A stretch of 64,000 nucleotides of DNA from assembly GCF_003815715.1 (NCBI RefSeq), contig NZ_CP033922.1, positions 1,625,001 through 1,689,000 on the forward strand. The letters run 5' to 3'. Under the pieces are notes generated by a model. It ran no database searches. It saw only the letters and a list, made by a program, of their open reading frames with translations, and was not told the DNA's origin. A program made the position numbers and the translations under genes. This document shows, in pieces, positions 4,737 through 8,416 of this stretch. The stretch comes from Chryseobacterium sp. G0162 (GTDB taxonomy: Bacteria > Bacteroidota > Bacteroidia > Flavobacteriales > Weeksellaceae). Position 1 is the stretch's first letter; each line of letters starts with the position of its first letter.

Positions 4737-4799
4737 ATCTTAACAAAATAAATAAGGGCGGAGCAAAGCAATTTGTCTTCGCTTTTTCTTTTTATAAAT

Positions 4800-5825
4800 A
4801 TGAATAACGACGAACTATATATTTCAAGATGTATTGAGCTAGCTCAAAAAGCGCTTGGCAAAACCTATCCTAACCCTCTTGTTGGAAGTGTAATTGTTCA
4901 CAACGGTAAAATCATTGGGGAAGGATACCATCACAAAGCAGGGGAAAACCATGCAGAAATCAATGCGATCAATTCAGTGGAAGATAAAACCCTGATTCCA
5001 GAATCAACGATTTATGTTTCATTAGAACCCTGTGCTCATTATGGGAAAACTCCTCCATGTGCTTTAAAAATTAAAGAATTAGGCTTTAAAAAAGTAGTCA
5101 TTGGTGCTATGGATTCTCATGATAAGGTCAATGGAAAAGGAAAAAAGATCATTCAGGATGCAGGAATAGAAGCTGTTTCAGGAATTCTTGAAAAAGAATG
5201 TATCGAACTGAATAAAAGATTTTTTACCTATCATGAACAGAAAAGACCTTACATCATCCTAAAATGGGCAGAATCTGGGGATGGATTCTTAGATAAAGAT
5301 TTTAAGCCAACTGCTATTTCTAATGCTTTGGTCAACCAATTCGTCCACCAGCTTAGAGCAGATGAACACGCTATTCTGGTAGGAACACAAACAGCTTTAG
5401 CCGATAATCCAAGTCTCACTGTAAGAAACGTTGAAGGAACTCATCCTGTTCGTATTTTAATTGATTTTGATCTGAAAGTTCCGAATGACTTTAAGATTTA
5501 CAACAACGAAGCCAGAACAATAGTTTTAAATACTGTAAAAGAAGAAACAGAAGGTCATATCCAGTTTATTAAAATTAAAAAAGACAACTTCCTGCCTGAT
5601 TTGATGGGAGCTTTATATAAAGAACAGATTCAATCTATTATTATTGAAGGAGGCCGCTTTACACTACAACAATTCATTGATGCTGGTCTTTGGGACGAAG
5701 CCATCGTCATTAAAAATGAAAATCTAAAATTAGAAAACGGGACAGAAACCCCAGAATTCAGGCATTTTCCTTACAAAACAGAAAACTACAGAGATAATAC
5801 CATTTCCTTTTTTAAATCAAAATAA
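4800..5825 (+). CDS. ribD: bifunctional riboflavin biosynthesis protein RibD
   Basis: Deaminates the pyrimidine intermediate of riboflavin synthesis and then reduces its ribose side chain. The N-terminal deaminase domain (about 1-145) carries the zinc site: HAE at 51-53 and Cys78 and Cys87 within EPCAHYGKTPPCA. The C-terminal reductase domain (about 150-335) includes the conserved LRADEHAILVGTQTALADNP region. A longer frame would begin with TTG at 4773, but ATG at 4800 puts the deaminase domain at its normal distance from the N-terminus, so 4800 is preferred. No other rib gene is nearby. Confidence 0.92.
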   Translation: MNNDELYISRCIELAQKALGKTYPNPLVGSVIVHNGKIIGEGYHHKAGENHAEINAINSVEDKTLIPESTIYVSLEPCAHYGKTPPCALKIKELGFKKVVIGAMDSHDKVNGKGKKIIQDAGIEAVSGILEKECIELNKRFFTYHEQKRPYIILKWAESGDGFLDKDFKPTAISNALVNQFVHQLRADEHAILVGTQTALADNPSLTVRNVEGTHPVRILIDFDLKVPNDFKIYNNEARTIVLNTVKEETEGHIQFIKIKKDNFLPDLMGALYKEQIQSIIIEGGRFTLQQFIDAGLWDEAIVIKNENLKLENGTETPEFRHFPYKTENYRDNTISFFKSK

Positions 5826-5890
5826 GCCCATTTATCACCTTGAAATGAAATAATTTATTTACCTTAGTAATATTCAAAAAAAATATTATT

Positions 5891-6055
5891 ATGAAAAATT
5901 TAAAAAAAGTTTCAAGACAAAGTTTAAAAAAAGTACAGGGAGGTATAGCACCTGAATGTTGTTCATTTTACCCTCCATCATTACAACACTGTTGTGCAAC
6001 GCCGTCAAGTATGAGCTGCCCACCGCCTTGGGCAGATGGATCATTCCCATGTTAA
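5891..6055 (+). CDS. cysteine-rich bacteriocin-like peptide with GG leader
   Basis: A 54-residue peptide. Its leader MKNLKKVSRQSLKKVQGG ends in a double glycine and matches the leader style of the bacteriocin-like small proteins common in Chryseobacterium. The core of about 36 residues is rich in Cys and Pro, with Cys at 23, 24, 34, 35, 43 and 54 in two CC pairs. It is followed 42 bases later by a related gene with the same leader but a different core. The GG motif suggests cleavage by a C39-type peptidase/ABC exporter, but none is in the window. Whether the product is toxic, modified or signalling is unknown. Confidence 0.7.
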   Translation: MKNLKKVSRQSLKKVQGGIAPECCSFYPPSLQHCCATPSSMSCPPPWADGSFPC

Positions 6056-6097
6056 TATCAGCATATCGTACAAATTAATTAAACTAAAAATATGAGC

Positions 6098-6283
6098 ATG
6101 AAAAACTTAAAAAAAGTATCCAGAGCCGGATTAAGAACAATCCAGGGAAGTGCTGTTTTTGTAACATGTATATTACCTAACGGCCAACCTACAAGATGTA
6201 GAGATAAATGTCCACAGGATTTTTGTGGACCAACAAGTTATATGTGTCTTATTCCAATGGATCTTTGCGGAGATGGAATTTAA
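6098..6283 (+). CDS. second cysteine-rich leader peptide, paralogous leader
   Basis: A 61-residue peptide starting MKNLKKVSRAGLRTIQGS. The leader aligns with that of the upstream gene without gaps, except that the second glycine of the GG site is serine. ATG at 6092 would add two residues; 6098 is chosen because it aligns the leaders. The core has six cysteines, in the order C-x9-C-x3-C-x4-C-x6-C-x6-C, and no similarity to the first core beyond Cys content. It is followed by a very strong hairpin terminator, so the two genes probably form one transcript. Confidence 0.65.
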   Translation: MKNLKKVSRAGLRTIQGSAVFVTCILPNGQPTRCRDKCPQDFCGPTSYMCLIPMDLCGDGI

Positions 6284-6297
6284 AAGAGATTTTTTAC

Positions 6298-6350
6298 ATT
6301 CAGAAAAGATATAAGCCGTCAAATTTTGACGGCTTATATCTTTTCTGAAT
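6298..6350 (+). terminator. perfect 26-bp palindrome, likely terminator
   Basis: Positions 6298-6323 are the exact reverse complement of 6325-6350, leaving one central base. The arms contain AAAAGATAT next to AAGCCGTCAAA. Folded RNA would give a long stem with flanking U runs, so it probably ends the peptide transcript and could act in both directions. Confidence 0.8.
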
Positions 6351-6382: not shown

Positions 6383-8416
6383 ATGAACAAATACTTCTCC
6401 ATACTTTTCTTGAGCTTAGTATCGCTTATGAAAGCTCAGGAATGGAAATTTTTAACTCCTGTAAAAGGGTATTCAATAATCAAAAGTTTAGAAGTTACTC
6501 CCAATCAAACTCTATACATTGTAGACAAAGACAAGGCTGCCTCTTCATCCAGAGATGGCGGAATTACGTGGCGAAAACTTTTCAGATCTGGATGCTTAGA
6601 CATTCAAATGCTTAATGATAATGTAGGTTTCGTTTTAAAAGATTATCAGATTTTTAAAACTACAGATGCTTTTGCTACCTCCACACCGTACCCTGTAAGT
6701 GGTGATTTCTTGAAAAACATGTATTTTGTTAATGAATCTGTTGGTTTTGTCTGTGGTAGTACAGGTGTAATTTATAAAACAACAAATGGAGGAGCGAGCT
6801 TCACCTCCGTATCTCTTTCTATCAATACAACCTTAAATGATGTTTTCTTTATCAATCCGAATATAGGATTCGTATCTGGAGAGAACGGAACGTTATATAA
6901 AACGACCAATCAAGGAGCAACATGGATCCCAACTCCTCTAAATACAACCGGAATTGACAAAATCCTTTTCATTAATGATAATGAAGGTTATATAACAGGA
7001 AATAACGGTGGAATTTTCAAAACAACAGACCAAGGAAACAGCTGGACAGCTTTAACCACCAATACCCAATATCGTTTGTTTGATATTAAATACAATGCTG
7101 GAAAATTGTATGCCGTAGGCCAAGATAACAGGTTATTAAAATCTTCAGATATGGGACAGACCTGGACACAGCAAAGACTGATTGACGCCTTCCCCTATAA
7201 CAGTCTCTATTCTATAGGGTTTGTAAATGGTAATATTTTGGTAGGCGGTGATGCTAATATTTATAAATCTACCAATGGTACAAACTGGACTATCCAGGTG
7301 CCCGGTATATATCAATCTAACTTGAAAAACATATCTTTCGGTAATGATGACAAAGGAGTTATCGTAGGAAATCAAACTGGCTATAGTGTAGTATATTATA
7401 CTGAAAATGGAGGGTACAACTGGACCAACAAAAAAGCAACCTTCACTCTGGATGCTTTCAAAGGTGCACATATAAGAGAAAATGGCAAAGGAGTCCTTAT
7501 TGGTAACGGAAACCATTCTTTCACATCAGATTTTGGTAAGACGTGGGATAATTCAAACATAATCAATCATCCCACATTTGTATCTCCTTACTGGCTTAAA
7601 AGTAATGGTGATGTCTTACTAGGAACTGCATCCCCCTATGTTTCACCCAATAATGGAATACACCTATTTACAACATCCAATACCTCTTATTTTACTCTAA
7701 CTGATAAGGTTGAAACAATCCAATTTTATAATGATATGATTGGCTATGCCGGAACATACCAAAAGCTTTATAAAACAACAGACGGCGGAATAACCTGGAA
7801 TATCATTTACACCGTACCAACATCAATAACTTATATCAATATTATTAATATAAACAAGATACAGATAGGCACAAATAATAACATGCATTATATTAGTAGT
7901 AATGCTGGTTCTACCTGGACCGAAAATACAGATGATGATCAATATCATTATATTAATGAACTTATAGGCTATCGTATAGATTCTGGTTGGGACATATACA
8001 GGACAGCAGACGGAGGCCTAACATCACAACTTGTTGTTCCGAGTACTAACTATTTTAATTCTAACCTGGCAACAATTAATGACATAAAATTTTTTAAAAA
8101 TAAAATTATTGCTGTTGGAACAACTTCAGATATTTTCATTGTGGAATTCCCTGATCAAGCTCTTGGAACCAATGAAAATGAAAAAACAAAAGACAGTCCA
8201 AATAATCAGATATATCCTAATCCTACTACATCTTCAGTGTTATTTAAAACGCCAGTAGCCTTAGATAAAGTTCAGGTTTATGATACTCAGGGAAAAATAA
8301 TGACATTTACAAAAGAGAATAACGGAATTAATATCTCACAACTGAAACCCGGAGTTTACTTTGTGAAATTTGAATCCAATGGAAAATGGTTCACCCAAAA
8401 AATAATAAAAAATTAA
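6383..8416 (+). CDS. T9SS-sorted Ycf48-like beta-propeller protein
   Basis: A 677-residue exported protein. A signal peptide ends near MKAQ at residue 18. The body has at least six BNR/Ycf48-type repeats of the form TT-x-GG/QG-x-x-W (for example TTNQGATW, TTDQGNSW, TTDGGITW), as expected for a multi-bladed beta-propeller. A C-terminal T9SS sorting domain begins near NQIYPNPTTSSV. It should end up on the cell surface or outside. Propellers of this type often mediate binding; the ligand cannot be read from sequence. Confidence 0.87.
   Translation: MNKYFSILFLSLVSLMKAQEWKFLTPVKGYSIIKSLEVTPNQTLYIVDKDKAASSSRDGGITWRKLFRSGCLDIQMLNDNVGFVLKDYQIFKTTDAFATSTPYPVSGDFLKNMYFVNESVGFVCGSTGVIYKTTNGGASFTSVSLSINTTLNDVFFINPNIGFVSGENGTLYKTTNQGATWIPTPLNTTGIDKILFINDNEGYITGNNGGIFKTTDQGNSWTALTTNTQYRLFDIKYNAGKLYAVGQDNRLLKSSDMGQTWTQQRLIDAFPYNSLYSIGFVNGNILVGGDANIYKSTNGTNWTIQVPGIYQSNLKNISFGNDDKGVIVGNQTGYSVVYYTENGGYNWTNKKATFTLDAFKGAHIRENGKGVLIGNGNHSFTSDFGKTWDNSNIINHPTFVSPYWLKSNGDVLLGTASPYVSPNNGIHLFTTSNTSYFTLTDKVETIQFYNDMIGYAGTYQKLYKTTDGGITWNIIYTVPTSITYINIININKIQIGTNNNMHYISSNAGSTWTENTDDDQYHYINELIGYRIDSGWDIYRTADGGLTSQLVVPSTNYFNSNLATINDIKFFKNKIIAVGTTSDIFIVEFPDQALGTNENEKTKDSPNNQIYPNPTTSSVLFKTPVALDKVQVYDTQGKIMTFTKENNGINISQLKPGVYFVKFESNGKWFTQKIIKN

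Follow-up and report, generated by a model that had tools for sequence, protein, structure and literature searches.

Tandem cysteine-rich peptides with a shared double-glycine leader in Chryseobacterium and a candidate machinery for their export and disulfide bonding

We analysed a window of 64,000 nucleotides from Chryseobacterium sp. G0162 (positions 1,625,001 to 1,689,000 of a genome that forms one contig of 5.28 Mb) that carries two adjacent short genes, here called p1 and p2, encoding cysteine-rich peptides with a common leader. The likeliest reading of the sequence is that p1 and p2 are precursors of secreted, disulfide-bonded peptides, subject to leader-directed export and disulfide formation, and that the 18-residue leader common to both serves as a double-glycine signal for export; we assign a probability of roughly 0.7 to this reading as a whole.

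The peptide pair and its conservation

Both genes lie on the forward strand and are separated by 36-42 nt. The first precursor (p1, 5891-6055; 54 amino acids) has a leader at 5891-5944, MKNLKKVSRQSLKKVQGG, which ends in GG, and a core at 5945-6052 that begins IAPECC, is rich in proline and carries six cysteines in the pattern CC...CC...C...C. The second (p2, 6092-6283) has 63 amino acids when read from the ATG at 6092 and 61 from a second in-frame ATG at 6098, which is the start shared with the aligned relatives. Its leader (6098-6151, MKNLKKVSRAGLRTIQGS) ends in GS and its core (6152-6280) begins AVFVTC and has six spaced cysteines. The list of open reading frames (ORFs), matches to an NCBIfam model and alignments of 15 and 21 loci, respectively, all define these two features. 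An earlier, sequence-only reading had described tandem short genes with a common leader ending in GG or GS and unrelated six-cysteine cores, the first with two CC pairs and many prolines, and the ORF translations and model matches bear this out.

The model in question, NF047798 (leader_Chryseo, "bacteriocin-like protein"), matched p1 with 35.3 bits over all 18 positions and p2 with 31.1 bits over the first 17, both above the curated cut-off of 23.5 bits. The peptide family is already named by NCBIfam, and the term "bacteriocin-like" is an annotation rather than a test. For the CCPGW family of putative bacteriocins (NF047792), which has a cut-off of 80 bits, the two peptides scored 18.0 and 22.1 bits and are not members. 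Both models describe peptides only; the exporter, the oxidase and the core exchange discussed below lie outside them. Neither peptide matched Pfam at E ≤ 1 or PADLOC, and a PDB sequence search with p1 gave no match. Double-glycine leaders are described as ending in GG, GA or GS with hydrophobic residues at positions -12, -7 and -4 (PMC6363468). This signature is present in both leaders, with V, L and V at -4, -7 and -12 in p1, and I, L and V in p2.

Profile searches with p2 returned insignificant zinc-ribbon matches only, the best of them to the ribosomal protein eS31 (E = 0.085). These weak matches are what favors the view that p1 and p2 are cytoplasmic metal-binding small proteins whose leader is merely an N-terminal domain. 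We regard this as very improbable: the eS31 match is not significant, the leader has a double-glycine end, leader peptides occur in an exporter cluster, and the oxidase that co-occurs with the peptides would be left unexplained.

We then searched 89 genomes and aligned the strongest 15 p1 loci and 21 p2 loci, counting those of the source genome itself. All six core cysteines were invariant in every one of these loci (15/15 and 21/21), and all 36 adjoin ribD. The p2 leader ends in GS in the window and in GG in the other 20 loci. Pooled dN/dS (nonsynonymous relative to synonymous divergence) was 0.164 for the leader and 0.050 for the core of p1, and 0.126 and 0.088 for those of p2; these values are rough, as synonymous sites are near saturation. 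From these alignments, p1 and p2 are judged to be genuine genes under purifying selection, with cores that differ between paralogs only and that are more conserved than the leader among orthologs. Because the cores are conserved across species, "unrelated cores" describes paralogs and not one gene evolving fast; the pattern of leader conservation with core divergence that had been proposed at the outset holds between paralogs but is reversed between orthologs.

The same alignments bear on the idea of a non-coding DNA repeat at the leader, with ORFs that are there by accident. Leader DNA is indeed alike at many loci of the genome, as this idea would predict. It is nevertheless extremely improbable, given that coding conservation covers the whole ORF and is stronger in the core, and given the even cysteine numbers reported below. 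The sequence-only reading had named conservation of the leader alone, as a non-coding repeat, as an outcome that would speak against it; relatives instead keep the entire coding sequence, the core most of all.

A large repertoire and a distant exporter/oxidase cluster

The proposed collection of leader peptides across the genome was carried out with NF047798, which gave 80 matches at E ≤ 10, including 45 over the cut-off that are spread over 25 loci. At the same E-value, eight of 14 control genomes gave matches and none of these exceeded the cut-off. We read 77 of the 80 matches (three were not fetched) and dropped one protein of 290 amino acids, which left 76 small peptides at 40 loci in 38 core clusters. 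This set includes 31 peptides below the cut-off, accepted on leader, size and cysteines. The number of core cysteines is even in 73 of the 76 (43/45 over the cut-off and 30/31 below it) and in 35 of 38 when one peptide is taken per cluster, which points to disulfides. The leaders of the family are hydrophobic at the positions gripped by C39 proteases; this count omits 16 of the 76 peptides whose match does not end in GG, GA or GS, including p2 of the window, which was matched over 17 positions. One peptide (locus L074, genome 4870386-4870670) stands apart from the others, joining the leader to a long Gly/Val-rich repeat core (GGVGGVIGGVG) with four cysteines.

The flanks of the peptide genes were searched for recurring partners. 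Among 180 ORFs of at least 70 amino acids lying within 2 kb of the peptides in 37 regions, no widely recurring family was found; the widest cluster spans four regions and contains the ABC (ATP-binding cassette) transporter itself. A dedicated immunity gene is thus not supported among ORFs of this size. Classical bacteriocins, each with its own immunity protein, are a possible reading toward which we remain tentative. The NCBI family name suggests it, and a double-glycine leader with a cysteine-rich core is what class II bacteriocins and microcins present. It is countered by the lack of a recurring neighbour, by the position of the p1/p2 unit between ribD and the gene of a secreted protein, and by the strong conservation of the cores between species, which is unlike an arms race with relatives. 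That same conservation, together with the very large repertoire and the missing neighbour family, would suit peptide signals or cell-surface or matrix peptides rather than toxins. Signals would be expected to have fewer different cores, and we consider this function conceivable without favoring it.

At E ≤ 0.001, the genome encodes two C39 peptidase domains, at 1777.75 kb and 4.03 Mb. The first belongs to an ABC transporter in a cluster about 145-147 kb from p1 and p2, where a VKOR-thioredoxin fusion precedes the transporter, an HlyD adaptor follows it and two leader peptides flank it. The Cys, His and Asp of its C39 triad are present by eye in the alignment. The absence of a nearby exporter, noted from the window, is true of the immediate neighbourhood and not of the genome, since this exporter is on the same chromosome. 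The further proposal of a common exporter or protease encoded elsewhere is supported by the repertoire, the C39 ABC/HlyD/VKOR cluster, the co-occurrence described below and the leader signature, from which it is inferred.

The VKOR fusion is 96% identical to a protein from a C. indologenes record and matched PADLOC only weakly (E = 0.019). Its residues 1-124 were modelled as a C39-like domain without cysteine, and fold comparison suggests that this N-terminal domain has a C39-like fold. Further copies of the fusion, about 28-35% identical and with a similar N-domain, occur in members of the genus and in other families (L291-L310).

The machinery would operate as follows. Precursors would be made in the cytoplasm, where the C39 domain of the transporter would bind the leader and cut after GG or GS, and the core would be exported with HlyD. 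The VKOR-thioredoxin protein encoded in the cluster would pair the cysteines and may, by way of its C39-like N-terminal domain, also grip this leader. The mature core would leave as a bacteriocin-like or signalling peptide. A bolder version, plausible but held with less than even confidence, is that the C39 domain on this membrane oxidase is catalytically dead and reads the same double-glycine leader as the exporter: a single tag would then direct both disulfide formation and export of dozens of unrelated cores, and the constant leader would let new cores swap in at fixed slots. Among open-licence papers, we found none on the ribD slot, on the link between exporter and oxidase or on a C39-like domain in the VKOR fusion.

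The arrangement of the cluster was examined in other genomes. The order VKOR, C39, HlyD was found in 14 of 14 longer loci, with leader peptides between VKOR and HlyD in nine, only upstream of VKOR in three and none in two (G028 and a short contig of G087). We also collected 43 loci of named Chryseobacterium records through their VKOR fusion; a C39 ABC transporter lies downstream in 42, and the downstream DNA covered, as a rule 4 kb, contains a leader peptide in 32. A control with reversed sequences gave 0 leader matches in these loci, against 57. The loci of G028 and G087 (L282 and L283) have the VKOR-C39-HlyD cluster, with no leader peptide reaching the threshold anywhere in these genomes.

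Both C39 transporters adjoin genes for modifying enzymes, and this opens the question of whether p1 and p2 are lanthipeptides or other enzyme-modified RiPPs (ribosomally synthesized and post-translationally modified peptides) that leave through either exporter. Upstream of the 1777.75-kb cluster lies an ATP-grasp/SPASM pair. It belongs to a grasp-with-spasm RiPP set (L083:4513-7787, genome 1772512-1775786; TIGR04192 and TIGR04193) with a TIGR04139-like precursor whose 38.8 bits fall short of the cut-off of 40, and a second copy of precursor and ATP-grasp lies at about 1452285-1453999. The transporter at 4.03 Mb is part of a class I lanthipeptide-like cluster (L084:6346-13195) that also encodes LanB and LanC; a Thr-rich, two-cysteine precursor-like ORF, MNNKFSQLQLNKKTIAKLNERQLSTVKGG..., with a different leader of its own, lies upstream of LanB. 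The p1 core has seven Ser/Thr for its six cysteines, enough for rings, and a Chryseobacterium class I lanthipeptide cluster has been expressed in E. coli (PMC9993889).

We nonetheless consider enzymatic modification through either set unlikely. LanB and LanC have a precursor-like ORF of their own, with another leader, a Thr-rich core and two cysteines. Each thioether ring consumes one Ser or Thr, and Ser and Thr together are fewer than cysteines in 55 of the 76 cores (the p2 core has four for six). Lanthionines give no reason to expect even cysteine numbers. Matches to SPASM and to ATP-grasp occur in 7 and 7 of the 43 named loci (4 kb flanks) and both together in 3 of the 14 longer loci. The earlier suggestion of a radical SAM or LanM-type enzyme is not supported for p1 and p2, with ATP-grasp/SPASM being optional and LanB/LanC having their own candidate substrate; no LanM search was made.

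Co-occurrence of peptides and oxidase across genomes

Across 88 genomes of the genus, leader peptides (E ≤ 0.001) were found in 81, a relative of the VKOR fusion in 84 and a C39 domain in 86. All 81 peptide-bearing genomes have a VKOR relative, so that no genome presents the peptides without it, and VKOR is absent from four of the seven genomes lacking peptides (G010, G055, G058 and G076). This co-occurrence has a Fisher p of 1.5e-5 when G051 is counted as VKOR-bearing, a value that ignores shared ancestry. The search also covered 59 genomes from beyond the genus: a VKOR relative is present in six of them and a peptide match in one (G133), where it adjoins VKOR, C39 and HlyD. This locus (L277:3654-8573) comes from a different family within the order; its leader peptide lies between two VKOR fusions with 28-30% and 44% identity to the query.

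Several observations weigh against secretion through this exporter/oxidase pair. Shared ancestry inflates the co-occurrence, and the C39 domain alone discriminates little, being present in 86 of 88 genomes. Three genomes have a VKOR relative and no peptide at E ≤ 0.001, with strong matches in G028 and G087 and a remote one (25% identity) in G051; in G028, no leader-like ORF of at least 30 amino acids lies between VKOR and C39. A leader peptide was likewise not seen downstream in 11 of the 43 named VKOR loci. A strict need for the oxidase is questioned by G085, with one peptide and a partial VKOR match, and by G037 (L290), which keeps many leader peptides alongside an interrupted VKOR frame, either a pseudogene or an assembly error. 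The hhalign profile match between the N-domain and the C39 domain of the exporter was unconvincing (probability 3.7%, pairwise E 0.0037), and in the fold comparison other papain-like folds score only slightly lower. An AlphaFold model of p2, built with 19 relatives, was poor (pLDDT 56.4) and was not used. Finally, no immunity gene or target was found.

The slot beside ribD and comparison with known systems

The p1/p2 unit is situated downstream of ribD (4773-5825, forward strand), which marks the peptide slot and is outside the peptide system; a gene for a BNR-repeat protein sorted by the type IX secretion system (T9SS) lies on the other side, at 6383. Between ribD and p1, the stretch at 5840-5890 of the forward strand appears promoter-like, as judged from the upstream DNA of the 15 p1 loci, with TTG at 5840-5842 and TACCTTAG at 5860-5867. 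TAnnTTTG is the -7 promoter motif of Bacteroidota, and TACCTTAG is one change away from it. A block around ATGAAATAATTT-TTTACnTTAG was recognized by eye, with minor changes, in 11 of the 15 loci, and the TTG is not conserved in most; a scan for sigma-70-type promoters reported no site on the forward strand at 5840-5890. The motif TAnnTTTG occurs upstream of 18 of the 76 peptides, compared with 7.8 ± 2.3 in shuffled sequences, so that a promoter shared across the family is weakly supported. Downstream of p2, a terminator-like hairpin at 6298-6350 (forward strand) has a 25-bp stem around AAGCCGTCAAA-TTTTGACGGCTT (-39.6 kcal/mol, z -13.5). It is the sole site of its pattern within the window and a related hairpin was seen by eye 3' of p2 in 19 of 21 loci; it was not listed by a terminator scan.

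We surveyed about 3 kb downstream of ribD in each of 86 relatives (G054, whose contig ends at ribD, was omitted), using a profile of 39 leaders from this genome that replaced a regular-expression scan which had missed some peptides. At least one leader peptide occupies the slot in 53 of the 86. All 78 slot peptides share the orientation of ribD and lie within 600 nt, compared with 0 in the reversed control, and several core families were recognized by eye. A constant leader and a shared machine would allow cores to be exchanged at such a fixed slot. An all-pairs test of core exchange (67 of 2582 slot pairs with leader DNA ≥80% and core <35%) was set aside because it mixes paralogs with positional pairs, and exchange is argued here from the alignments of L251/L252 and, more weakly, L245/L243.

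In the pair L251/L252 (G025/G075), the upstream DNA is 91% identical, the leader 87% and the core 57%, and identity returns to 92% from the next peptide gene on. The core value compares with a mean of 52% and a maximum of 61% for shuffled cores, and the difference begins exactly at the leader junction. Core replacement at this junction would explain such a pattern, as would loss of a tandem copy by recombination between leaders. In the pair G012/G047, the upstream DNA is 83% identical, the leader 87% and the core 46% (null 46%); the downstream DNA is 65% identical, so that end is uninformative.

The candidate system shares features with several known ones. Prochlorosins and synechococsins are described as having a conserved double-glycine leader, variable cores and scattered precursors served by one promiscuous machine, with 79 putative precursors for SyncM (PMC10783134). 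The candidate system would work in a like way, with many scattered precursors and one machine. Prochlorosins are lanthipeptides with a ProcM-like enzyme and a long Nif11-family leader, whereas the leader here has 18 residues, the cores look disulfide-bonded and the proposed enzyme is a VKOR-thioredoxin oxidase. Peptides exported by C39 transporters of the AMS/PCAT type, such as class II bacteriocins, present the same leader ends, the same hydrophobic positions (-12, -7 and -4) and a C39 ABC transporter (PMC6363468), with an HlyD adaptor added in our case. Unlike them, a single exporter here apparently handles dozens of loci, recurring immunity genes were not found and the exporter co-occurs with an oxidase bearing a C39-like domain. 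In HlyB (PDB 3zua), a C39-like domain is carried by an ABC transporter, whereas here it heads the VKOR-thioredoxin fusion. Within the same genus, chryseoviridin and other graspetide loci also have several precursors, which are duplicated in tandem and swapped between species, as here (PMC8939145). Graspetides require ATP-grasp ligases; here the flanks are ribD and the T9SS protein gene, and ATP-grasp/SPASM is optional in the exporter cluster.

Taken at the strength given above, these results mean that the scattered "bacteriocin-like protein" annotations of Chryseobacterium would become one testable secretion system, with one exporter/oxidase pair and at least 45 candidate substrates in a single genome. 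With its conserved flanks, the slot beside ribD offers a natural experiment on the exchange of cores. Should the oxidase indeed read the leader, secretion and disulfide formation of unrelated peptides could both be directed by this one tag, and the system would be a disulfide counterpart of the promiscuous prochlorosin enzyme.
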